A stretch of 64,000 bases of DNA, taken from the NCBI GenBank assembly GCA_015501595.1, contig JADNRX010000229.1, forward strand, positions 1 to 64,000, in the 5' to 3' direction. Source of the DNA: Hymenopellis radicata (lineage: Eukaryota; Basidiomycota; Agaricomycetes; Agaricales; Physalacriaceae). The notes beneath the pieces were generated by a model that was given only the letters and a program-made list of their open reading frames with translations, searched no databases and had not been told where the DNA came from. The translations under genes and the position numbers were made by a program. This document shows, piece after piece, positions 2,099-20,045 of the stretch (positions are counted from its first letter, which is position 1; each line of letters starts with the position of its first letter).

Positions 2099-5000
2099 TC
2101 ACAAGTTTCGAGATCGATCGTAGGCGCGACGAACGTCAGGCGAATTGCGTAAGTTCTGTTCTTGCTCCCACGTGTCGTCTTCCGGCCCGTAACCCTTCCA
2201 CCTAACCAGATACTGTCTTCGACTTCCCGTCTTCTTCGACGAGTGACGATGGCCAAGAATGGCTTCCACTTCATATTCTTCAAAAGCTCGAAGATTCCGG
2301 GTCGGAGCCATAACTTCCCTCTCGCCTAGGTACTCGGGTGACGGTTTGTATCGTTTCAAGTGCGCTAGGTTAATCACCGAATGCATCTGGTAATCGTCTG
2401 GGAGTCGTAGCCGGTAGACTTGTGGGTTAATTCGTTCCATAACCTCAAAGGGACCAATGCCTCTTTGCACTAGCTTCTTTCCTGTTCCTTCAGCTTCGAC
2501 TAATTGCAGCGAATGGGGGTTGACCAGTACCAGATCTCCCTCGTTGATGGATTTCACTACTCTGCGGCCCTTATTGTAGGCCACCGTCTGTCTCTCCTGT
2601 GCTAAGGCTAGAGCGTCTCTGGCTAGGCTTCTGTGCAGCTCTCGATTCCCAATATATTCCTCTCCCATACTACTGTTGATGTCATAGTCGCGTACGCGCT
2701 TGGGATCCCAGGAGTATGGAATCGTAGAAATCGCTGGCTTGTATCCAAACAACAACTCGTCTGGACGTTCGCGGGTGGAACTATGAGTGGATGAATTATA
2801 GGAAAATTTTAATTCGCCAATCCAACGCGCCCAATCTTTCCGGTCACCCTTAACATATGCTCGGAGCATGGCCTCGATACGTGCATTTAGGATCTCAGTC
2901 TGACCGTCTGTTTGCGGATGATGCGCCGTGGAGACGGCTAGCTTCGTGCCATAGAAAGCGCATACCGATTTCCAAAATGCGCTGGTCCAGCGCTTGTCGC
3001 GGTCCGAGATGATTTTGGTTGGTAACCCGAAAACATCTACGACGTGTTCCTTGAACAGACGGGCGAATCCCTCGGAGCTAAGGTCGTTGTGTGTAGGGAT
3101 CATCATCGCGAACTTGGTAAGTTTATCCACAATAACGAGGACGGCAGTGAATTTCTCCTTCCCCGAAGCTGGTAGACCTGTGATCAGATCTAAGGAGACG
3201 GTATCGAATGGTCGAGCGGGAATGGGTGCGGATCGTAGACCTCCTTCTCTCCCCGATCTGTCCACCTTCGTCTTCTGACAGACGTCGCAGGTCTCGACGA
3301 AAAGCCGTGCATCCTTAGCCATGGTAGGCCAGAAGAATACTTCTCGCAAACGAGATAGCAGACTACGGGCGCCGCCGTGAGCGCCTTCCATGGAAGAGTT
3401 ATGTATCCAGTTCAATACCCACGAGATCATGCTCTGAGGCACGCACAGGCGCAAATTCCAATCGGCGTCTGCAAAATACAACAACCCGCTTTCAGCGCGA
3501 CGATAATGGGATGGAGAAAGAGGCTGGTCCGCTGTGGGAGCTGCACGCGCGTAGGCATCCCGAAATGATCGATCTTCCGTGTACCCATCGGCGAACTTCT
3601 GGACGACTTCAGCGTCAACCGAAATAAGAAGTTTGGAGTGTCGGTCTTCCGTTATCTCTTCCTCGATAGCCCGGTCGACTGCTTCAGGTATGCCCCACTC
3701 TTCCAGATCGAATTCTTCTGGTGACACCTCTTTCTTTGCAGCAGACGATTCTGGTAGTTCCGACTGCGTCGCCGCGGGTTTCGATTCCAACTTAGGTGAG
3801 TGGGGAGCTGAAGGAGCTGACGGTCCCGACGCTTTCTTGCCAGCCCGGGTCTGGACGGCTTCCGCTTGCTTTGGGAATGGGGCGACTATGTCTTCCCACC
3901 ACCAGACTTCGAACACGGCTTTCTTAGCCGCAGATTTGCGGTCCTCAAGCCTCTGAGCTTTCGCTTCGGTCTCGGGATCGGGCTGTATAGGGTCTGACGG
4001 GTCTAAGGAAGGGGAGTGGTGCTCCGGAATGCGGGGAAGACGAGATAACGGATCGACGTTGGAGTGGACTCGGCCGGGACGGTGGATGATTTTCAGACCG
4101 GGGAAGGCTGCGTACACTGCCCCCCAGGCTGCCAACCTCTTATTGGTATTCTCGTAGACTCGGGCCCACTGTAGAGCGGCGTGGTCGGTAATGAGTATCA
4201 CCTGTTCCCCTTCGATAAAAGGTTGGAACTTAACCAACGCTTCTTTTGCAGCGAGCGCTTCCCTTTCCGTCGCGCTATAATTACGTTCCGCGGCCTTGAA
4301 GGTACGGCTCCAGTACGCAATAACCCGCTCCACATATACCCATGTGTCTTCGAACTCATCTGCCCAGGTCAACTCCTCTCCAGTCTCGTCCACGTCCTTA
4401 GAGACTTTCGTTACCAACCGCGGGATGGGTAAGTCGTGGTCAAAAGATCGCTTCAATCTATCGTAAGTTGGCGTCTCTCGCAGGTCCCGAATTTGTATCT
4501 TCTGAACTTGTTGCAGACTCGCGCCTAGGGCTATATCGGACGCGTCGGTATACAAGCGGTACGGCTGACCGGCTAGAGGGTGTCCCAAAACCGGGGCTAG
4601 GGATAAGGCGTCTTTTGCTTGATTGAACGCAATCTCATGCTCAGCTTCCCATCGGAATTTAGCGCCTTTTTGAAGCAGTCGGAACAGGGGAGCCGCTATG
4701 AAGGAGTAGAAGGGTATGTATGCTGAAAAATAAACCACCATTCCTAGGAACTTCTGCAGATCCGGTACGGATTTGGGTCGCTGTAGCTCTAAGATAGCCG
4801 CTACCTTCTCTTTATGGGTCGAGAAACCTAGGCGGGAAACTTTATGACCCAAGAGTAGAATGGACGAGTATCCGACAAAGCACTTCGTCGGTGCGAGCGT
4901 GATTCCCGACTCCTCAATCGCTACTAACACCTGGTCCAGATGCACCAGATGCTCCTCCCAAGTCCTGGAGTAGACGACGATATCATCGATGTACACCAGG

Positions 5001-8000
5001 GTAAATAGCCACAGGTAGGGCGATAACACTCCCTGCATAACTCGTTGAAAGATGGATGGTCCATTTCTCAGTCCGAAGGGCATCCTTCGAAATTGATACA
5101 AGCCCATGTGACTTCGGAACGCGGTCTTCTCTCTATCTCCTTCTGCCATCTCAAGCTGTGTAAATCCAGCGAGTGCGTCGAAAGATGAGAGAACCTGCGC
5201 TCCTGATAGGGCTTGAAGAATATCAGACTGTCGAGGTATCGGAAACTCGTCTGGGATAGTCATCGCATTAAGCTCCCGATAGTCGACAGCGAGTCGGGGT
5301 TTCCCGTTTCGAAATACGACTACGCATGGAAATCCCCAAGGGCTAACCGATTTCTCGATAACGCCCTTTTCAAACCAGTCGTTGACTTGTTTTTCGATCA
5401 CTTCTCGTTTCAACGGGGAGGCTGCGTACATCGGTTTCGACACTGGCCGCGAACCTTCCTTCAGAGGAATTGGAACTTCCATGCTCACTTTGCCTAGACG
5501 ACCGCTTACGCCAAAAGCGCCTTCTCGCTTCTTGAGTAAGGCGAGGAGCCTTGGTCGGATATGGTCCGGTATGTCGGGTCCCAGGTTGACCAGTTTTGCA
5601 ACTTCCTCTTCCGAAGCCTCTTCAGGGAGCGCAGTCAATTTAGGTCCCCAGGACTCATCCTCAAATTCTTCCACGGCCGCTGGGACGAAAGGACTTGGCT
5701 CTGCTTGTATTTTTTCTTTTTCTTGTCTTAACTTCTCCTCCTCAACTCTGATGCGCTCTCGGTTCAAGCGATAGGCGTGACCTCCATCTTCGGTATCAGG
5801 TATGTCTTCCATACTTGTTCGTCGCGGACGCTGAGACGCCATTCCTACAGCTGGAGTATCGTTCGAGGTATTCAACGGGGGCGCCACTGCAGCTGTAACA
5901 ACAGCAGCGGGCGCCAACACCGGAGTCTTCTCCTCGTGATTAGTCTCCTTTGCTATCGGAACGGCTCCTACGGCTGGAGTATCGACGGGAGTGTTTAACG
6001 GGGGCGCCGCAGCAGCCGTATTTACAGCAGCGGGCGCCGACACCGGAATTTCCTCCTTCTGATTTGTCTCCTTTGCCTTCTGTGGGGCTCTCCGTCGCGG
6101 GATGGATTTTCTCGCTGACGCTTCTTGAGACCGGTTGTACGACGTGGCGTCATCTTTATCCGGAATCTCTTCCATCGTTACCGAGCTGCTGGCTGATTGC
6201 GAAGACGTGTCGTCGTCTGTACTCTCCTCGAATTCGGCATCAGAGTCAACTTCCTCTTCTTCACTACATGACGCCTCCTTTTCTCCTCGATCTTTCTCTA
6301 ACATCGTGTCAATCCACACCCTCATCGTCTCGGCTCTGGCAGAGTATGCCTGGTGTTTGTCACTTCCTACTTCTGGCGCATCGAGGTCTAGCTCTGGATT
6401 AAGCAAATGTCCCACCAATTCGCCTGCGCGAATCATGATTGGGCGAGTGCCCGGATTTGCCATAGGCAGATATGGGTTGTCGGCTCTTATCCAACTCGTG
6501 GCTATGGCCGCTACCTCGGAATCTTCGTTGGCTATTAGTACTTTGTCCACAATCCATTCGTCCCTCTCCCCCCAGTCAGCGATGACTTCTAGGTATTGCA
6601 CATAACCTGGTTTAATCACCAGGTCGCGCGCCGCATACACAGGTGGGGGAGTTGCTAGTACTTGCGGCCTCTTCTTCGCGCGTGCGCGTCTCGTTAATTT
6701 GCGCCGTACGAAGGAGGCGACATTCGCGAAGGATTGGCGAATCGAGAATCCCAAGTCAACTGCTAGAGAGGAAGAGGCTTCAATGCGATAGCCTTGGCGG
6801 GGAAGGGTCACGAAACAATGGCCCGAGGCGCGACGTTCCACTCCTAACTCGTAGGAGGTCTGGAAGTCCTCGCTTAGCAGTAGTGGAGTCATCATTCCCC
6901 TGACCACATAGGCCTCGACTTCGAAGCTAACCGTCTTGCCGTCCGTAGTCTCAACGAGGTAAGCGAAGGTCGTATATCCCAGTATTTTGGCGTCTCCCGT
7001 GAGCTGATATAAACGAATGCGCATACCCTGTTTCAGGGGAGGGAGATCTGATCGCGAATTGAAGAACTCTTCCGACATTAACGTGATGTCGGCTCCCGAG
7101 TCTAATTTCCCTTTCACTGAAGCAGAATCCATGGAATTGATGTACCCCTTGATATGCAGTGCAGTGATGCCCGTAGCTCCTCGCCCTTCAGGTTGCGTTC
7201 GGCCTCGCGGAATTGATTCGACCCCCACAGGTGGGTTCTGATCCGCCTCCTTCTTGTCCTGAGTGGCGCTCGTTGATAGCTTCCGGCGCGCTCGACGATT
7301 AGGCGAGGGAGACGTCTCCTTTTGTTTACCTGTGGATTTCGTTCTAGCCTCAAAGGCTTCCCGACGACGGGTGTTACGATTCGGAGAGGAAGAAGCAGCT
7401 CTGTGGGAGGGCATCGTAGAGGAAGGGGTAGTACTCGCCTGTTCAGTAGTTTCTGGCAAAGAAACTTTCGCCTTACAAGAGGGACAGTAAGCGCAAACAC
7501 ACTTCGATTGAGTCTCAGTACACATAGCCTCATACGCCATCCTATCGCTGGTAATATCTGACTCCGTAACATCTGATACGATCTCGTTGGCCGTGTACAG
7601 CCGGTGCCATCTATCGAAGTGGGGGCATTGGTGAGCATAATGGAAGCGACTTCCACACACGAAACAGTTTCGTCCTTCCTCGGGAGGGCGAGCGCCTTTG
7701 ACCTCGTCCGCACAGGGGAAGGTTTGTCCTTTATACTTTCCCCCTTTCGGCCAGTCATTTTCGGGAACAGTCGCCGTCCGAATACGACTGGTTTTCTGCG
7801 AACGATCCAAGGCCGCTACTAAAGCCTCTGCTATAGCGTCGATGGAAATTCCTGGAGCTAGGGACAGACTTGAGGAAGATGCTCTCTCCTCCTCTGCTTG
7901 AGCTTCCCTGGCGACTCGAGGAACGGAGTCTCGTTCAGGCTCATCGCGTTTCCAGTGCGCTATCAAGGCCTTCGCGTGTCTCGAGGCTAGGTTGGTGAGT

Positions 8001-8124
8001 TGCCTTAGCGTCTGCGCGTAGTTAGAGCTTAACAACGTCTCCCATTCAGGGGGTTGAGTACGCAGGACTCGGTCCACTACCGCCGGTCCATCCTCTTCGA
8101 CGAATAGGAAGCTGTGATGCTTGG
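2099..8124 (-). CDS. pol: Gag C-terminus and Pol polyprotein of chromovirus
   Basis: Roughly 2000 residues, open throughout. Counting from the ATG at 8128: remainder of gag; CCHC zinc knuckle CFVCGSRFHYAHQC near 155; aspartic protease DSGAD near 342; reverse transcriptase with LAVDYRELN and catalytic YIDD near 1044; RNase H starting YTDASD near 1192; integrase with an HHCC zinc finger ending CDVCQ near 1612 and the D,D,E core (DLITG, ISDRDKRW, TDGQTEILNARIE) between about 1646 and 1746; C-terminal chromodomain with YLVRWKGYG and DDTWE near 1950-2007. All catalytic residues I can check are present. The ATG at 8128-8126 partly belongs to the inserted element; the retroelement's own frame enters from gag, so this is the 3' part of a single gag-pol frame rather than a separate gene. 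Confidence 0.95.
8122..8124. repeat. Target-site duplication (left), TGG
   Basis: TGG flanks the insertion here and at 16971-16973. Discounting the insertion plus one copy brings the gag frame on the right into phase with the frame on the left, which supports a 3-bp duplication. Confidence 0.7.
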
Positions 8125-8125
8125 C

Positions 8126-8147
8126 CATCAGGAAAAGCCTACATTGC
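8126..8147. repeat. Left terminal inverted repeat, 22 bp
   Basis: Begins CATCAGGAAAAGCC and is the exact reverse complement of 16949-16970. Confidence 0.9.
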
Positions 8148-9779
8148 CCATTTAGTACTATTTATGACATTTTATGAATAATCGGGCACTGGCGAGTAAT
8201 TTAGAACATTTTAGACCATGTTTATGAAGGAGATAGCAGTAGAATACCAGAGGAGAAATGAATATTGAATTATTAGACAACGACCATAGAACCTTATACA
8301 TACATTGGTTATAACTTGATGCGAGTCAGAGACCTCATACTTAAGTGCAACTCGCGATCCAACTCATACTCTACTCATGATCCACCGCTGACTCAATTCG
8401 CGTTAGCGTGCGAGTCAGGCGAGTTCACGAGTAAAGTTGTGGGTAACCGCCTTCAAATCCATTCATGCTCGGCGAGCATCCCCGGGCAATGGCACGGGGA
8501 CACTCAGCCGTGCATGAGGACGGACTGAGGGTGGCATTGGTGGTGGGAGTGAGAGTAGTGGTCATAATGGTGGTGGTGAGAGTGAAAGTGGGAGTGGGAG
8601 ATGTGGTCACAGTAGTGGTCCGTGGCTGATGTTGCCGTCGTCGTCATTTGCCGCATCCTCGGCACATCCTCATCCTCCTCGTAGTCGTCTTGTCGTTGTT
8701 GTCATCGCCGTCGCGTGGTCGTCGTCACGGCATCGTCGTCGCGTCATCTTCCAGAGGTCCTCGTTGATGTCGTCCGCTCCTGCTGCTGTGTCGATGACAG
8801 CAGCAGTAAGCCCAGGGGCCAGCACACAGCTAAAGCCCCGGATATTTCCACCCCAGCCTGACGGCCGTCAGAGAAGCAGTGGCAACGGCCGTCACCACTG
8901 GGTAGTGGTAGTGGTGGGTGGAGGAGACAGAAGCGACTTGGTCAAACGCTTACGCGTTTGCTTCGGATCTCGGCCCGTCACCGATCCACGTGCGTGTTCA
9001 TTTTTTTCTTCCAAGTCCGTCTCGTCCTTCTTTGCCTCTTCCCATATGCTGCCTCTTCCCATATGCTCCATACCTATACCACAGGCCCGAGCACCGGCTC
9101 ACCAGCAGCCTGGACGACAACATTTCAACACCGGCAAGCAATACCAACACCGGCAAGCAATCACGGACGCGAGGAATCAAGGGAAACGACTCCGACGACC
9201 ACGGCGGTCCCAGCCAACGAGGACACACCGACAACGGCAGCGGCGCCAGCCAGCAGGCACGACGACATCATCTCACGAGGATGAAGAAGGCGACAATGAC
9301 AGCCGGCGAGGACAACGCCAATCATTGCTCAACGGACGATGACGGCCAGCACCACAACAACGACAATGGCAGTCGGGTTGGGAAGGGAACGGGAGTGGGT
9401 ATCCGGAGAGGAGGCAGACGGGGTGGGCGGGCGCAGTGCCTGGAGCCGCTCAACATCTTTACCAACGGCGACGACACCGACCAACGAGTTGAACATGCTG
9501 CCGACAATTGTAAGCCGACTCTCGCGACTCTGTGAGTCTCTCTGACGGCTATTGATAGGTGAGGCGGGTGGGTATGGTAGAGGCGACCGGCGTCGCGCTG
9601 GCCAGCGACCACAAGGAAAAGGTGCGTTTAACTTGCAAATATTTCTGTTGCCTCTCTGATGATTCACTCTGCTCATAGCTTCCTATTTACCGAACACAAA
9701 CGCCCGAGATTTCGTTACAAGAGACGCCCTCGGCACTGGAGAAACAGATCGGAAGACCATCACACAGACCTACGGCGAC
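8148..9779. other. Left flank of the outer element, no supported gene
   Basis: AT-rich subterminal sequence with ATTTAGAAC/TTTAGACC/ATTAGAC motifs (8150-8280). Then a stretch repeating GAGTCAG/CGAGT-like motifs (8320-8430), low-complexity GGTGGT/GTGGGA tracts (8530-8620) and GTCGTC-rich sequence (8630-8770). Open frames here are low-complexity and overlap on both strands. I see no recognisable transposase. Confidence 0.6.
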
Positions 9780-9945
9780 GCGCATGCGTAGTCTCGAACC
9801 AGCCGCTCGACGCCGGTTTTTTGAGGGGATGAGGACACCGGCGCAGCGTCTGGAAGATTTCGGTCCACATTTGGCAGGTCGGATTTTTTCCCACGATTTA
9901 ATGGGACTTCAACGAATTTTTGAGGACCTCCAGATTCAAACTCTT
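9780..9945. repeat. Left inverted end of DUF6589/RecQ unit, with stem-loop
   Basis: Matches 15972-16122 in reverse; 65-bp core at 9846-9910. A stem-loop is formed by CCAGCCGCT (9799-9807) and AGCGTCTGG (9845-9853) with one mismatch and GC-rich extensions. Confidence 0.8.
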
Positions 9946-10098
9946 CCAGCACATTCACTGATGTTACCAGTCTATAGAATAGTTAAATTAAAATGAAATG
10001 ACGTTTTTATTTCATCGAAATACTCAAAAGCGGTGCTATAATGGCTTGATCGGTGCTGCTGACAAGTAGCATCTCCTATTCTTTCTTATCCTCGAACA

Positions 10099-13000
10099 AT
10101 GGCGTATGGACACAAGCGGGCTCGCAGCGAAGAGGCAGAATACACTCCTGCACCATCTGTGAAGCGCTTCAAAGGCACAAGACAGAGGGGGGTGCAACCA
10201 GCTGAACCCCTACCATCCAGCAGTGCTCCCGGATCCCCATCCTTCATCAGCCGCGAGAATACCCCCGTACCGACCGCACTATTTCCCGTAGACCCCGTCA
10301 CACCACCTAGAGACAATGCTGCGCTCCCCCCACTTCCATCATCCGCTGCCCAAATCATGGTCTCACCCAAAAAGCGAAGAGGTCGACCAAGCCATCGCGG
10401 GAAGCGCAATCCTGCTGGGTCTCGCAGTGTCCTTCCAAATCCTTCATGGGCCAGTGAAGCACAACGACAGAGTGCTGCACAAATGGCTGATGACATGACC
10501 GAAGCCCTAGACCACGTAGAGGATCACCTCCTGATGAAGGCAGCAGAAGTGGCAGCAAGAAAGGCTAGTGAGCAAGCAGCGGCGACTGCAGAGCAAGCCA
10601 AGGAGGCTCGGAGGGTCTTTCAGCTCATAACAGAGGGTAAAGAGAAGGGTGGTTTCGGGTTCGAGTCAATGACCCAGTTCATGCAATCGCTCTTTCAGCG
10701 CGAAGGATCTGATTCGCAGTTCGAGGCAAACTTGACACGCTTCTGCCGCGACCATGGAGACGAGTTAGCACGGAAAGTCGAGAGTCGCAGCCCAGGAGTC
10801 CTGAATGACTTCGTTTCCGACAAAATGGCGGCAGTACTGGCCGAAGAAGGACGCCTAATCCAGGAGCATCTTGCACGCAAGTCAACGACATCTGTTACAG
10901 ACTTGCTGTCAACGTTCTCAGTTACGAAGTTGGCCGGCCTCTTACCAACATTGGCACCGACACTCTGGCGCGTGCTTGAGACCGTTACAGGTCCAGAGCC
11001 CATATCGACGAACAAGACGAAAAAGACAGGAAGGGAACGTGGGCTGGTGAGAGTTCGCGTCAACACGCGTTTGATGCCATCAATTTACCCCGCATTCAAT
11101 TTAGGTCTTTGCCACCATCTGTGCAATGATATCAATCCTCCGCTCGCAACGGTCCAACAATTTTCAGACTGTTATTGGGCTGTTCCTACTTGGATCCGGT
11201 GCCGCCAAACGCCAAATCGAGGTTCTGTCACATGCGGGACTGTCAACGTCGTACAGTGCCATCCTTGAGCACGTCAAAACATTATCGCAGGAGGGAATAC
11301 TACACTTTCGCCAAGTCGTTCGCGACTGCATGTGTTCCATTGTCTGGGACAATCTCAATATCGCCTTCCGCGTTGAATCTCAGCGGCTCGACAACACCAA
11401 TCGTTTCGACAATGGTACCACTGCTACTCTTATCCCCCTACACGATCCATTCACCGGCGGTAAAGTACCCCACGGTACCCTGACCGCGGACATGAAACCT
11501 CCTCGCGAAACCACCAAGCCCCCACTGAACTGGACGGTTGAGCAGACCTTGATCTCACCCGAGGATGCAGTCAAACTAGACGAGTGCAGTTTGTGGCAGT
11601 TGAAAAAGATCGCGTTGGATGTTATAGCTGGCCTGGGGCATCTGAAGAAGGGCTTTCGAGAGTGTCCTGAGGTAATCAAAATCGCTCTCCACACTACTGA
11701 GCAGTATCCTCTTCCCGCTATGCACGAAGACGAGTCAAGCATTGATGGTACTATTCGAGTGTATCTTGCCATTTTGAAGAATCTTGGGATCACGAACGAG
11801 GAGATACGCGCCCACGGTCTTATGTTTACGGACGGCGACCTGCTTACTGACTCATTAGTCGACAAGGTTAGTTCCAGAGCGACTTTCTATTGAACTTCTC
11901 ACTTGACATGTAATAGATTGAATCTGCGCGACGTAATTCACCGGAAGAGATTGAAGGACTCAAGATGGTGATCCGCCGCTTTGGACTCTTCCACGCCAAG
12001 ATGGCGGGTTGCCGTATGGTCGTGAATGAGCACTGGAACAAGGTTGGCGCGCCAGCGGGTCTATGGTGGGAAAATACACGCCTGTTAAACCGCAAGCCCA
12101 TGGTAGGCGGGTGGCAGAAACAGAAGGCAACCAGATGGAAGCCGTCACATGAGCTACTGGAGATCTCTCTTGCAGCGCATATCAAGGATGCATTTCGTAT
12201 TCACTGCGGGAGCGATGATCTCGATGAGTGGGCAAAGAATGCTACGGAGGAAGAATTTGACCGTGTTTCTCAGGAGTCATTCAATAACCTCTTCACGACA
12301 GAAGCGTACGACCGCGTTCACGACAGCGTCGACTCGGAGCGGGACATCATCTTCGAAAACAGCATTCTTCAAAATCGTGATATGCTGTGGTATAGCCTTC
12401 TCGTATCCTCCATCAAGAGTGGCGACATTGGGCGTGTTATCCTGGTATTACGGATGTGGATGGTCATGATGAGAACGCCCAAGACCATGCCGAAGTATGC
12501 TGATGCTATCTTTGAAACCTTGGCACGCGTTGATTCATACCATCCCAAGTTGAAGTGAGTCTATTGATCCAGAGTCTTGTTTTGTACTACGTACTGATAC
12601 ATTCTAGGGCCTACTTTCTTCATAACTGGCTTGTAAATTTAACTGGACGTCCTGGCCGATTCAAAGAAGTCGATCTGTTACAAGAACATCAGAACTTCTG
12701 GGCGAAGGTACTACTTGTTGTCACGTGTGCGTTCAACGCAAGGCTGATACATAGTACCCCATAGATCATTTATAACGCTAAAGGGGTCAATCGCAGTTGG
12801 GATTGGCTTGCTATGATTACCGTCTGCATCTTTTCTCTGCGGGATGCCATGCGCACAGTTGAGAAGGCATACAAAATCCCTTCGTACGGCGAGAGTCACA
12901 CCGTTCCCAGTATGACAAAGGAAGTTGAACTCCTTGCCACTGCATTGGCTACTGAACGCATTCAGGAGTACACCCAAAACCGCCTGCAGAACGACAATGT

Positions 13001-13277
13001 CAACGAGTCGCGGGATCTCATCTACGAAGGATCGAAGTATGCAAACACCCGAACGGCATTCCAGAAATTCACTCCAGAGACTCGCCATGCACAGAATCTA
13101 GGAGTCGTTGGTCCAACAGGATTAGCTGCTGAGGAGCGAGATATAGAGTCGGAGGATGAGGAGGAAGATGAGTATGAGGTGGACGAAGAAGATCTAGCGA
13201 TGGATGAAGATGAGGCAGCTGCATATGAGCATGCAGAGGAACTCATGGCTATTGTAAACGAAATGTCCGTAGATTAA
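10099..13277 (+). CDS. DUF6589-domain protein with AT-hook, possible transposase
   Basis: Five exons: 10099-11046, 11105-11866, 11917-12554, 12608-12707 and 12765-13277. All introns are GT-AG and the model is open for 986 residues. The N-terminal third is disordered and basic, with an AT-hook-like KKRRGRPSHRGKR at residues 91-103, and then a coiled, Ala-rich stretch. The body resembles the fungal DUF6589 family as I remember it, including IVWDNLN near residue 397, an FDNGTTATLIPL block, and MFTDGDLLTDS near 556. The tail is strongly acidic. No biochemical role is established that I know of. The spaced WDN and DGD motifs could be part of an RNase H-like DDE nuclease, but that is my inference. 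The convergent RecQ-bromodomain gene ends 12 bp away, which suggests the two act together. Confidence 0.85.
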
Positions 13278-13289
13278 GCGTATATGCTT
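13278..13289. other. 12-bp convergent intergenic gap
   Basis: The TAA of the DUF6589 gene ends at 13277 and the TAG of the RecQ-bromodomain gene begins at 13290. The two 3' UTRs must therefore overlap, giving antisense transcript ends. Confidence 0.85.
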
Positions 13290-15826
13290 CTATGTTAAGG
13301 GGTTTGTAAATGCAAACAGTTTTCTATCTACTATATCCTGTAGAAAGTCCGCATCCTCGTATATCTGTGATGTGTCTTGATTGAAGCGACGTGCATTATC
13401 GAAGAGCAGTGACCAGGCGTTCCGGAACTCCTCCACCGATGTGTACCCCTTTGTAACACCGGCATGCATCTGTTTCTTGATGTGCGCCATTGAGATGGGC
13501 TGTGCGATGATCTCGTAGTAACTTGGGTATTGCTGGATACAAGCTGTTAGTCTGAGAATTTGTTTCAACCACCAGAACGTACATTCTTCTTCGGAAGGGT
13601 CATGAACATGTGGCACCGCTTGATCACCTTCTCTTGTCGATTGGCGCCACGGCCTCTCGTAACCGTACGTGTCTGGGATTCGACCGCCTGGTAGCACTCC
13701 TCAAACAGCACGACCAGCTTCTCGTGCCGTTCTTGACGCGCAAGAGCATTCAACTCCTCAAATGCGCGTTCACGTGCTGCCGCCTCCCTCTCGAGAGCTT
13801 GCGGGTCTGGGTAGCGCTCACATAAGATTGAGAGTAAGCCGACAATCTGCCGCCCATAGCGATAATCATTAGCGCGACCCCATGCCCATGAGATGTTGTT
13901 AACATCGAACATTCGAACATCAGTGATGGCGCGCGCGCGTGACGCAATCTTCTCAATGATATCGGTGCTCAGAAGATGCTTCCCGGTAATAGATCGTTGG
14001 TTGGGGAAATCTGAAAGAATGATGACAGAACGCCAATTTTGGAGCGAGAAGACAGCAGCGTCATACAGTTCGGGTGTAGGCTTCGGAGGGCGTCCTGGGC
14101 GAAACGTAGTGGCTGCTGCAAACGATACAGTCTCAACCGGAAACTGCGTGGGCTGGCAGTTGTCGCAGCATCGCGCACCCGGTGGTGTATTTATTCCTAG
14201 TGACACTTAAACAAATATTAGTGGAGGTAATCATTCCTGAGAAAACGAGACTCACATTTGTTCTTGTTCATAAAGAATTCGTTCCAGGGTACCCGCCGAC
14301 AGCCGTTTGTCGCGATGAAGGCTGACAAGAACTTTCTGTCTCTTGTCTCAATAAAGTTCAGAGCACGACGCTTGCGGCCACGACCGCCTCGCACTGGCAC
14401 TGGTACCCGCGAAACTACGGGATCGTCTTCGGTATTGTCGTCGTCATCCTCAATTGCTGCCTCTCGGTCTAGATGTTGGAAGTCGGAACGTGGTACCAGT
14501 TGTTCGTCATCGTCTTCTTCATCATTGGCAGCGCCGCCCTGGTCAGATTCATCGCCACCGTCGGCCTCGTATTGAAGAACATGTTGATTGTACTTCGCCT
14601 TTGTGATGTACAGAATAGCTTCACCGAGCTTGCGGAAGTCACGAGTGCACCGGCCAATCTTCTGGACAAGGGATAGAAATGTCCGCGGCTCGTCCCAGAG
14701 AATGACACGCTGAACATGTTTAAAATCCATACCCTGTATATCTGGTGTCAGAACGGGCCAAGCCACTTAGAAGACACATACCATTCCCAGCGCATCTGTC
14801 GATGGAATAGCACGAGATTCCCCAGATTTGATCTGCTCTTGGATAACGGTCTTGTGGTGTTCGTCGACATAACGGTGATAAAACTCGATTCTATCAGCAG
14901 ACAGCCACTCGGGTGCGTGCTTCCGAAGAAAGTCCTGCATCTCCTCCGCCACCTTGCGGCTGTTTACATAGATCAGAGTCTGAGGGAAGTCGTCCGGCGA
15001 CACGCCGTCTCTAGGAAAGAGCGTGATGAGGTCCGCATACGAGTTGCTCGGAAACTGAAGTAGGCGAACAGATAACGCCACGTTCAGCTTCTCGTTGGAC
15101 ACCGATATTACTCGGCAGTCAGTGAGGCGAAGCTTGTACTGAATGTCGTTCATGACTTCTGGTGGTAAAGTCGCGGAGGCTATGAGGACAGGTACACCAC
15201 TAGGCATGCGACGCAGAAGGGTGACGAGCTGGCTATACTCGGGACGGAAGTCGTCGGTTCCCCACTCGGTGATGGAATGTGCTTCGTCGATGGAGACCTG
15301 AATGACATTGTTCTGAAAGGTGGGGGAGTTGAGGACGATTTCTTTCCAGCGACGATCATCCGCCATCTCCGGACCCAATAGTCCGACGCGATACTTGTTA
15401 TTCGCGAAATCCTGCTCTCACGTCAACAATAAATCTATCCTGTACATCGATGTCACATACCTTCAACTTCCTGTCCATATCCTCCGTGTTCGACGTGAAC
15501 GACACAGCCGGAATCCCGCGCTCATTCAATTCCTTCTCCTGGCTCACCATTAACGCTGTCAATGGGCTGAGGACCACAACCATCTTGTCTGATCCTGGAT
15601 CTCCTTCCCTGGTACCCGCAAGATGATAGAACAGCGCGTACCAGAGCGCCAGAGTCTTCCCGCCGCCGGTAGGGATGTCCAGGATAGTGGAGTGGCCAAG
15701 AACGATGTTCTGCCCAGCCTGCTCTTGGAAATCGCGCAGTGAGGGCACTCCAAATGTCGCACACATCAACTCGCGAGTCACAGCGGCCCTCTCTGGGTCG
15801 ATTTCGGTGACTGGCGCGAATGGCAT
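13290..15826 (-). CDS. RecQ-like DNA helicase fused to a C-terminal bromodomain
   Basis: Five exons on the minus strand: 15826-15461, 15411-14782, 14733-14256, 14205-13583 and 13532-13290. Together they give 779 residues with no stop. Helicase motifs are intact: Walker A IPTGGGKT (51-58), DEAH box IDEAH (163-167), SATLPP (201-206), TDALGMGMD (327-335) and motif VI QKIGRCTRD (356-364). After an acidic linker come CRRVPW (~476) and CCDNC (~505), the usual RecQ zinc site. From about 650 to 765 the sequence has bromodomain features: FEECYQAV, LPKKNQYPSYYEIIAQPI, and NARRFNQDTSQIYEDA with the acetyl-lysine-binding Asn. The layout resembles the SNF2/BRG1 type. Helicase and bromodomain residues share exons in one frame, so the fusion depends only on the phase-1 intron at 14206-14255, whose acceptor TTTAAG I chose because the next AG creates a stop. 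Confidence 0.85.
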
Positions 15827-15971
15827 CGTCGTGTCTGCCTAGGGGCCGCGGGAAGATTGTCGGGGCTCTACAACGCGCGGAAATTCGAAATTTGGGAAAA
15901 GGAAAACGTAATTTAATTTTAAAAGAGTGTCGGCAAGTAATGGTGTGTACGCTATAGCGATACAAGGAGTT

Positions 15972-16122
15972 TGAATTTGGATGGTAGTGGTAAAACGACG
16001 AAGTCCCATTAAATCGTGGGAAAAAATCCGACCTGCCAAATGTGGGCCGAAATCTTCCAGTCGCTTCGCCAACGATCCGATCGGCTTGGTGAAGCGACTG
16101 GCATCGAGTCTAGCGCATGCGC
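15972..16122. repeat. Right inverted end of DUF6589/RecQ unit, with stem-loop
   Basis: Reverse complement of the left end; core 16000-16064. The stem-loop 16057-16101 pairs CCAGTCGCTTCGCCA with TGGTGAAGCGACTGG at 14 of 15 positions around a 15-nt loop. The loop differs from the left end while the stem is kept, which suggests selection for structure. Confidence 0.8.
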
Positions 16123-16948
16123 AGGTTCAAGGCGTCGTCTCACAGTGAATTGATAGTGCGTGAAAATGTTCTTGTTTTGCTAGACTTTGTTCACCCTTGT
16201 GTAGACCGCGTCAAGTCGCTCATTTCACCCACTGAGCCCGTCACTCCACGCATTCTCTACATCGGTATCATTACCCTCAGTGGCTCTGTCTTTGCACGCA
16301 TGCGGGTACGTTTTGTTTACTTGTTGCCCTTGCCGAAGACTGACTGCATTGCCCAGGCTCCGCCTTTGCAGGCGCGTCGCTGACTTTGGTTGTGATCGTG
16401 AGTTTCCGCCCGATCTCTCCTTGTCGACTTGTTTCGATTTGTAGATACCCGCCTTCGACGCCGTCTCTTGGTGTCCAACCCTCTGGTTAGTCGTTTCTGG
16501 TTTATACCCTTAACGAGGTTGTTCACACACTTTTCAGACTTTTCCTCTTGTGGCGGTAAGTGCCCTTGACTCGATGCTGGCATATCTCACATAGTATTGG
16601 GGTATATAGTGTTATCTCTTCAGTTCTTGTACTCTCTTGATGTATCTATAGCTTGCTTCCAGAATCAATCTGTCGTGCTCATAATACTATTGATATCTGT
16701 TTCGTGCTTATATTGTGTGATAATATTTGTCTAATTCAAGTCTAATTCAAGTCTAATTCAAGTCTAATTCAAGTCTAAGCATCAACTAATTGATGCATAA
16801 CTATCATATAACTTGTGTCTAATTTCTGGCTAAAACAGTCTAATGTGGCAAGGGGGAAGGCCATAAGTGTATATATTATGAATAAGTGCTGAGATTGAGT
16901 ATTTTAGCGCTATTTAGACAATATCTACGACTAGTTAGAGATAATATA
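16123..16948. other. Right flank of the outer element, no supported gene
   Basis: No recognisable coding sequence. The last ~230 bp are AT-rich and contain GTCTAAT motifs. Short frames present (for example at 16117-16383) show no family features. Confidence 0.55.
16729..16779. repeat. Subterminal 11-bp tandem repeat
   Basis: Four exact copies of GTCTAATTCAA begin at 16729, 16740, 16751 and 16762, followed by GTCTAAG. Single copies of the same core occur at 16816, 16838 and, reversed, near 16913 and 8270. Such clusters near transposon ends are typical transposase-binding sites. Confidence 0.8.
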
Positions 16949-16970
16949 GCAATGTAGGCTTTTCCTGATG
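16949..16970. repeat. Right terminal inverted repeat, 22 bp
   Basis: Exact reverse complement of 8126-8147; followed directly by the second TGG of the target duplication. Confidence 0.9.
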
Positions 16971-16973
16971 TGG

Positions 16974-19866
16974 TCCGTCGGTGTATGAAGTCGACCGGGT
17001 TCTCTGCGCGATGACCGGGTTGCCTGAACCTCATCTCCTCCCATTCTTGCATACGCCCTGCTATCCACGTCTTGGTGAGGAAGAATTCCCGAATAGCCGT
17101 GATCATTCGGAACCAGTCGGCTCTCAACCACTGTTGATCTGGAAGAGGCAGTCCTGCCCACCAGTTTTGAGCGCGGGCCGTCCAATAATGAGGAGCCATG
17201 TTAGCGATACCCTTTCGCATTTTGCTACTCATCCAGGCCAGTTGCTGCATAGCGGCCAGGTAATCCACCGCTGTCGTGTCACCACCATCCCAAGGAGGAA
17301 TGATTGAGGGAGGCAGTTTGTGATTAAGCTGCCACTCGATATCCTCGTCGTCTCCATTCCACCCACTCCTTCCGCCCGCGCCACCTCCTCCGCCACCACC
17401 TCCACCGCCGCCACCTCCACCGCCGCCACCACCGCCACCACCTCCTCCGTTTCCTACTGGACGAGGATCAGGTGGACCTCTTCCGTCAGGTCGAGGAACC
17501 CCAGAGGGTCCAGGCGCTGCTGGAAAAGGCTGGGAAGGCTGCGGCGGCGGAGGGACTGGAGGGAAAACACCTCCAGCGCCTTGCACTCCGCTCTTCCAAT
17601 ACCCTTGACCAGAAGGATCCATCCCTTGCATCCCGATGCCTATGTACCCGGGCCCCGCTCGCATTCCTGCGGGGAGCTCACTCTCACGGGTCTGAAGAGC
17701 GATAGCGGCGGCTGCTGCGTCTTGGTATGTCTCTTCCGGAACAGACAGGTAACCACCTCTGGATCTAGTGTTCAGATCTTGGAATCTACCAACGCCAGGG
17801 AGCGATGAAAGCGGATGGGGGTCCATGCTCGTGGCTGTCCTAGGCCTGGAAGTCAGGGGTACTGGTGGTACTGAAGGAGGAGCTACGCGAGCGGGTATCG
17901 ATTGAGGTTGGGAGCTCGGAGTTACAAGGTTACTGGGCCAGTTTACAGATGCTTTCCCTTTAGCTTCACGCACGGAAATAGAGCTCATTAATTCATGTAC
18001 CCTGCTTGTTGCATCTTCAATCATACTGTATTGCTCCTCCTCAGCACCGGGAAGTCCATATGCTGAAGGGTTCGAACCACGGTAGTAACCTTCTATCCGA
18101 TTGACATTGACCTGATCTAAACGAAGAACTAGACGCTCCGCCTCACGCGGGTCGATTTGCCGAGCTAACTCGAAATATTCCGGCCTCTGCAAGTATTTCC
18201 CCACTTCGGTGGCGCCACTACCTGAACCTTCGTGCGTGCGAATCTCTGAGATCGTGGAAGCGAGTTCGGGAAAACGGACCCGTTCGTCGGTGATCCAGAT
18301 TCCTCGAAGAGCGAGTAGGTAACGCTCCAGTCGCAGCTGACCATTGCGCAGCCGCTCCTTCCAAACACCTATAGTAATAAGTAGCCGAGGAGCGCTCTGA
18401 CAGATTTCCATGGCTCTAATGAGCTTCCAACCTGGATCCAGCTGAAATCCGGGTTTCTCAACCCAAAGAAAGGCATGGAATGCGTCGAGACACTGGGTCA
18501 GCGCGAGCGCGACGTGCGCATATAGTTCCAGGAACTCGGTAGCTAAACCCCACCCGGGAATCGCGTGCGGATCGGCCGCGTTAGAGATGCGTCGCAAGTC
18601 CTCTCGAGTGACGAGGGCGCCTAGTACCTCCTCGATGCCTTCTGGCAAGTTCCTCCAGAAGTTCCCTGTATGGGGGTAGGAAATCCGAATGATGAGCTCT
18701 CTTATCCAGAGGCTCTCTTCCTTATTCCTCCCCGGCAGTACACCATCTACTCCCCCGAACGAAGTCAGTGGGTCTTCCTCAGGATGGTGCGAATCCCATG
18801 CAGCGTGGAATCTTGCTACCGACGTAGTGAGAGCTTCGTCGCGTGGACTTACATCTTTACCATGGCCTACGAGGAGGAAGCTGTCGCCACTGCCGTACTT
18901 AGACTGGCGGGCGACGCGCAACCCCGTCGTGACACTCTCGTAAGTTCGTCTGGCATCGTAATGCGATCTCGAGACTGACGAGGTGTGCCCGGTTGAAGAT
19001 TGAGGGTCCGAGACAGAGGCTTCCGTCGGCGAGGGAGAGGGAGATAATAGCGATAACGGTGACCGAGGAGAGGGGGAGCTCGCAGCTGCGCGACGCCTCG
19101 ATCCTGCATCACCCTCCTCCACGGATTTGGGAGATATGACCCAAGGAGTCCAAGCTGGAATGTCCGCTGGCACGAAGATGGAAGCAGGCGGTGTGCGCGC
19201 AGGCACAGGGTCTTCCCAGAAGGCAGGCGACGGTTTGGGAAGTACTGGGGGAGCTGGTTTGGGAATTACGGAGGGAGCTGGTTTGGGAAGCACGGTGGGA
19301 GCTGGTTTGGGAAGCACGGTGGGAGCTGGTGCAGCGGGTCCGGGGTCGCTTGAATGAGACGACGACGGGACCTTCGTGCGGTTACGTCCTCGGGATCGCG
19401 GTTTGCCTCTACTCGCTGATTCCGTAGTCTGGGGAGGATCCTGCGGTGAGGAATCGGCCGTTGTCGAGGTCTGGGTCGGGGTGGAGGAAGACCCCGAAGA
19501 ACCGGTCTTGGCCGTTGTGTTGACAGGCTGGTTGGCGGCCAGCGGCGAGGATACCTTGGGCTGATTCGTGCTTAGCCCGCCGCCCTTATTCTTCCTAGAC
19601 TTCGCAGAGAGGTCCGAGGAGCCGTCCTTTCCAGCTGGAGGGTTGTTCGCGAGGACTGGGGCCTTGGAAGACCTAGCTCTGTTGGTGGGAGTGGTAGGAG
19701 AGCTACCTGACGCGAGCGGAGCGTCTTTCGACGCGGCGTTCTTGGGAGTCGTCTCGGTTGGTTGCTTGGAACCTTTAGTGGACGATGACGCCGGTGCTGG
19801 GGTTTCCAGAGCAGCTGCAATCGAGTTGTTTGTCGTCCTACCACCCGTTTTGCTTCCGAAGGACAT
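16974..19866 (-). pseudogene. gag: Gag (5' part) of the chromovirus, cut by insertion
   Basis: Starts at MSFGSKTGG, 180 bp downstream of the primer-binding site, and runs about 964 residues to the insertion point. The first third is disordered and rich in Ser, Thr and Pro, with several tandem VLPKPAP units (19240-19340). A poly-Gly run coded by GGT/GGC repeats sits at 17370-17450. The capsid-like end includes WEEMRFRQPGHRAENPVDF, a pattern of Gypsy gag proteins in Agaricomycetes. Past 16974 the frame reads into the inserted element and ends at 16876. The missing gag end is at 8124 and below. Because the frame lacks any other lesion, the insertion is probably young. Confidence 0.88.
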
Positions 19867-20045
19867 GAGAATGAGAGGGGGCTGCGACGTTGATGGGGAG
19901 TGTGGGTGAGCGACGCGGAGGAAAGACGCGAGAAATGTCCGACCGCTGAGTCAGCGGAATAACGCGTTATGACGTTCGTGTTGGAGTCGTTAAATCGCGT
20001 CTCGTCGTGAAGCAGGTCAGCGCCTGCGTGTCGTACTACTCGAGC
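19867..20045 (-). other. Retrotransposon leader
   Basis: Non-coding sequence between the primer-binding site and the gag start; expected to hold packaging signals, none of which I can identify by eye. Confidence 0.5.

Follow-up and report, generated by a model that had tools for sequence, protein, structure and literature searches.

Which mobile system carries a DUF6589 gene and a helicase gene between structured inverted ends? The question is raised by a locus in a 64,000-nucleotide stretch of Hymenopellis radicata DNA (GenBank GCA_015501595.1, contig JADNRX010000229.1, positions 1 to 64,000; hereafter the window), which is contig C551 of a 75.5-Mb genome assembly of 1,405 contigs. From sequence alone, the original prediction had proposed a self-mobile two-gene unit at 9780-16122, with inverted ends and a stem-loop at each end, nested in another repeat. 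That unit stands, with target duplications now seen on both sides, except that its right end is corrected to 16112: boundaries taken from the alignment of copies give a transposon of 6,324 bp at 9789-16112. The element is recently mobile, and we consider it very probable that it is a cut-and-paste transposon of the AcademH type in which the DUF6589 protein is the transposase and the helicase acts in repair of the donor gap.

Movement of the two-gene element

Insertion is recorded by a 9-bp target-site duplication, GCGCATGCG, which flanks the element at 9780-9788 and 16113-16121 and is present as a single copy at empty sites. Six of six close-family copies with both ends read (the window, C3, C621, C595, C740 and C851) have exact duplications of 9 bp, each with a different sequence. 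The surrounding repeat, in which the unit had been predicted to be nested, occurs elsewhere without the insertion: in all six other copies of this repeat with adjacent flanks, just one 9-mer lies where the flanks meet; it is unaltered in C484, C583, C773 and C374 and has one change in C921 and C1295. At a different place, C700 carries a copy with no difference in the 1,646 bp compared, which comprise the helicase side and the right end. Duplications, empty sites and this identical stretch together bear out the recent movement of a self-mobile two-gene unit. Two further candidates were rejected: a divergence of the C700 transposase (87%), for which the alignment reveals chiefly gaps between gene models, and an excision footprint at C484, where the 13 additional bp are a tandem duplication next to the target.

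The left end (9789-9853, plus strand) consists of a TAGTCTCGA terminus and a hairpin with arms at about 9799-9816 and 9838-9853; the right end (16057-16112, minus strand) has a TAGACTCGA terminus at 16112 and a hairpin with arms at 16057-16072 and 16086-16101. A 71-nt subterminal inverted repeat (9840-9910 on the plus strand, 96% to 16000-16070 on the minus strand) overlaps the inner portion of either end and substantiates the inverted ends first proposed. Both genes are intact and convergent. The DUF6589 gene (10099-13277, plus strand; introns at 11047-11104, 11867-11916, 12555-12607 and 12708-12764) and the helicase gene (15826-13290, minus strand; introns at 15460-15412, 14781-14734, 14255-14206 and 13582-13533) have five exons each and encode 986 and 779 amino acids, respectively, and in these gene models they are open, as predicted, with stop codons 12 bp apart. 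In both genes, differences that change an amino acid are much less frequent than silent ones, with pN of 0.16-0.27 against a pS of 0.73-0.84, which is near saturation, in four comparisons with C563 and C68.

Some other copies are reduced. Those on C3, C595, C740 and C851 have lost the interior and kept the starts of both genes. The copies on C595, C740 and C851 are alike in structure and carry three different duplications, as expected for derivatives moved in trans. Genome searches with the element ends gave at least 41, 40 and 47 matches in three overlapping match sets, so that the inverted ends are present in other copies too. The same insertion with shared flanks was seen in the contig pairs L064/L065, L068/L072, L073/L074, L075/L079, L078/L083 and L081/L082. 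Two haplotypes, or contigs in duplicate, are probably present in the assembly, and copy counts are therefore rough, raw counts being too high.

The predicted transposase and its helicase partner

The protein encoded by the plus-strand gene matches Pfam family DUF6589 with an E-value of 1.4e-107. Its predicted fold is that of an RNase H-like DDE transposase, the nearest solved structures being Hermes and the P element, at about 10% identity in structural alignments, and a D-D-E set is conserved in DUF6589 (candidate triad D398, D561 and E809, with codons at 11348, 11837 and 12684 on the plus strand). Based on this fold and triad, the DUF6589 protein is most likely a DDE transposase, the predicted cutting enzyme of the element. 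The earlier suggestion that it acts on DNA thus gains support; its casting as mainly a DNA binder gives way to a predicted transposase. The AT-hook-like motif on which that casting drew is present (KKRRGRP at amino acid 91), and motifs of this type occur in 19 of 40 homologous protein models; the database model of the window protein (Hymenopellis radicata BDZ89DRAFT_1021349) begins downstream of it. A Pfam scan at an E-value of 1 returned only DUF6589 and a sub-threshold Esterase match, with no MULE transposase domain listed.

Database matches were scored from the closest candidates only, and the host range among the matches listed is fungal. All 120 listed matches of the window query and all 20 of a divergent query carry PF20231; those that are named come from mushrooms and are called hypothetical protein or DUF6589 domain-containing protein. 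The term DUF6589 was found in none of the 5.39 million open-licence papers searched, so a transposase role is not stated there under that name. New here are this role and the two-end relics described below. DUF6589 is a widespread mushroom gene family, and naming its proteins transposases would improve the annotation of fungal genes and provide a signature by which AcademH-type elements can be searched for.

The convergent partner is a RecQ-family helicase with a C-terminal bromodomain (Pfam DEAD, 1.9e-20; Helicase_C, 3.6e-13; Bromodomain, 3.6e-14), its GGGKT and DEAH motif codons starting at 15667 and 15288 on the minus strand. The motor domains are RecQ-like, the closest solved sequences including RecQ, BLM, WRN and RECQL5, and the bromodomain resembles those of polybromo, STH1 and RSC4. 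Genome searches gave 88 DUF6589 matches in 45 clusters and 57 helicase matches, also in 45 clusters. For 23 of the 45 DUF6589 clusters a helicase cluster lies no more than 6 kb away, and every one of these 23 pairs is convergent. The original prediction had named a usual lack of a RecQ neighbour as one finding that would undo it; a convergent helicase instead recurs. In the protein database, equal contig size was taken to indicate the same contig; by this proxy, 40 of the 83 close helicase matches considered (83 of 91 listed) share a contig with one of the 120 listed DUF6589 matches, one such contig being 4,460 bases long, and a hand count of precomputed domains gave a bromodomain in 46 of the 83. 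Pairwise distances of transposase and helicase correlate with r = 0.807 over 36 of 37 unambiguous same-contig pairs (both proteins at least 550 amino acids), a value reached by none of 2,000 permutations, the highest of which was 0.369. Shared species history contributes to the correlation. In the genome, 22 of the 45 DUF6589 clusters lack a helicase in the 6-kb search, several of them being fragments near contig ends and one, C581, having a weak convergent helicase match though scored as unpaired. Judged by these sequence patterns, the helicase belongs to the element and has evolved together with the predicted DUF6589 transposase.

More divergent DUF6589 loci were also seen. C854:15939-25282 (L039, L040) is a 9.3-kb DUF6589-helicase element with TAGTCT ends and the duplication GCTGGGAGC; the subterminal stem at its right end, GACTTTATAG/CTATAAAGTC, shows no sequence relationship to that of the window element. 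The DUF6589 loci on C704 (L043) and C1295 (L045-L047; a stretch of about 16 kb that includes further repeats) have similar ends composed of TAGTC, a spacer and ATCGCGCC.

Relationship to AcademH and other transposons

Kojima reportedly described AcademH in 2020 (Mob DNA 11:15) as Academ DNA transposons with a helicase, and the title is said to report them from animals too. The window element resembles them in its predicted DDE transposase between terminal inverted repeats. In the accessible text of one source, duplications are 9 or 10 bp in AcademH and 3 or 4 bp in AcademX, a difference related to the encoded helicase or nuclease (PMC10045372); an excerpt of another names DEAD and Helicase_C as domains of AcademH, KolobokH or Helitron and places AcademH at low copy number in Basidiomycota, Ascomycota and Mucoromycota (PMC10799480). 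As far as these excerpts describe AcademH, the likeness extends to a helicase encoded between the ends, a Basidiomycota host and the 9-bp duplication, which we found in 6/6 close-family copies and in C854; the sister lineage AcademX, from the same text, is unlike the window element in having a nuclease instead of a helicase and duplications of 3 or 4 bp. On C704 and C1295, TAGTC inverted ends are present, but no matching duplication was found. Because helicase, inverted ends and duplication length agree, the unit fits AcademH and is unlikely to represent a new kind. It likely belongs there, a placement made by the features given in these excerpts rather than with an Academ transposase sequence.

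Other systems agree in part. KolobokH has a TTAA target duplication, which does not match the 9-bp duplications of varied sequence in the window family, and it was rejected on this ground, as was hAT by size. The hAT and P element transposons are not known to have a helicase. They share the predicted fold, through Hermes and the P element, and literature available in part describes a C/DxxH signature for them. The usual hAT duplication is 8 bp in the portion seen of PMC12730594, compared with 9 bp here; MuDR and IS256, in similarly partial sources, make duplications of 4 to 10 bp, into which 9 bp would fit by size alone. KolobokH is also a fungal DDE element with a RecQ helicase, and the available text of PMC9587614 indicates that fungal DDE elements acquired such helicases on more than one occasion. 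This precedent, together with a comparison that included no Academ sequence, lends something to the idea of a DDE superfamily apart from Academ, in which DUF6589 elements with TAGTC ends and 9-bp duplications would have gained their RecQ helicase independently, as KolobokH did. No animal protein appears among the DUF6589 matches listed, though AcademH is reported from animals; these lists are limited to the closest candidates, so that missing animals mean little. Since helicase, inverted ends and 9-bp duplication coincide with AcademH, which the excerpt reports from Basidiomycota, we regard a separate superfamily as improbable and retain the AcademH assignment.

Two-end relics and the role of the helicase

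Most matches to the ends are very short. The left 62 bp were scored at 40 places (the best 40 of 53 candidates), and 36 of these 40 matches stop at positions 38-60, with only the window, C3, C621 and C563 reaching 62; matches to the right end follow a similar pattern, and many of them lie directly beside a left match. After six pairs with common flanks were merged, the 26 short places read represent 20 loci, of which 19 have both ends and one (L084) the right end only. The relics at the 19 loci are 62-117 bp long and consist of only the two ends, about 50 bp of each. Duplications are exact over at least 9 bp at 12 loci (L083, read by eye, among them), comprise 8 matching bases at 5, and are missing at L067 and L071. 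Breakpoints fall mostly within or just before the inner hairpin arms (left about 50-65, right about 41-56). Three junctions have extra bases, 2 abut exactly and 14 overlap by at least 1 bp, in most cases 1-3; the two that overlap by 10 are doubtful, as they depend on an alignment with mismatches.

We propose that the DUF6589 protein, as a DDE enzyme whose predicted RNase H fold carries a helical insertion, should bind the element ends, and that it would cut out the element and attach it to target breaks spaced by 9 bp. The helicase would then most likely act on the donor-site gap and promote repair synthesis from the sister or homologue, which would restore an element copy at the donor site, while the bromodomain could tether it to acetylated chromatin. 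Should copying fail early, only about 50 bp would be restored at each end before the two were fused, often through 1-3 bp that they share, to leave a relic. When P element excision was assayed in Drosophila, aborted repair was more frequent and repair tracts were shorter in blm mutants, according to the available part of PMC8951532, and by analogy with this phenotype we place the helicase in donor-gap repair and tentatively read the relics as aborted repair, a hint at helicase function. If the helicase does drive donor-site repair, the transposon supplies its own recombination helicase, and the copy gain of cut-and-paste elements becomes directly testable in a mushroom with near-identical copies.

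Alternatively, the relics could be ordinary miniature inverted-repeat transposable elements (MITEs) moved in trans, not repair products, which we take to be a real possibility, if short of an even chance. In favour are the duplications at 17 of the 19 loci, exact at 12 of them, and the larger derivatives on C595, C740 and C851, which look mobilised in trans. One amplified master would share one junction, and by end positions the 19 loci have 16 junction types, which argues against a single amplified MITE. Weighing against aborted repair, one junction recurs at three loci (L062 one base off) and another at two, so some relics may move.

A second alternative concerns the helicase itself, which might serve transposition rather than donor-gap repair, either at the hairpin ends, by melting or pairing them, or in excision, by separating strands. 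Hairpins are present in the window element, as the original prediction had it. They fold at -14.1 kcal/mol on the left (z -2.3 relative to shuffles) and -18.2 kcal/mol on the right (z -4.1), so that the right one is clearly beyond shuffles and the left less so; among 2,973 random window stretches, 1.1% fold as well as the left hairpin and 0.3% as well as the right. An Rfam scan of window positions 9000-17000 gave no family at the element ends. The window family, C740 and the right end of C854 also have hairpins, which favours a use in transposition. Their generality is contradicted by the ends on C704 and C1295, which fold no better than random window stretches (shuffle z -1.5, -1.9, 0.5 and 0.4), and yet DUF6589 loci so divergent often have a helicase. 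The left end of C854 has no convincing hairpin (z -0.7), and in target-duplicated relics hairpins are mostly incomplete, usually with one arm and with the inner arms mostly missing, though such relics possibly never moved as such. A hairpin as a general requirement of the superfamily is ruled out by these cases, and the stem-loops predicted for each end hold for only some families. A direct helicase role in transposition therefore seems to us somewhat unlikely, and we keep to donor-gap repair. The most specific version of donor-gap repair, in which a chromatin-reading RecQ helicase forces host gap repair to recopy the element and the relics are failures halted at the inner hairpin arms, is speculative and in our estimate rather unlikely; if true, the genome keeps a readable record of failed excision repairs.

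Several minor observations concern other repeats. A 970-bp element on C993 (L041, 2197-3166) has the inverted ends TAGAGACCTCAACGAG / TAGAGACC and what looks like an 8-bp duplication, CTTGTCAC; it is probably an unrelated MITE. For other families, a scan for 14-bp terminal inverted repeats gave one unconvincing row, and a looser one picked up C854 and, in L058, a single row that was likewise unconvincing. A viral-contig scan returned 60 pattern matches, none confirmed. No direct repeats of at least 80 bp, as possible long terminal repeats, were found in window positions 1-30000. At 2099-8161 on the minus strand, the window contains an open Ty3/Gypsy-like frame of 2,020 amino acids with reverse transcriptase, RNase H, integrase and chromodomain; a 1,024-amino-acid frame at 16876-19950 on the same strand, to which no Pfam family matched, may be its gag.
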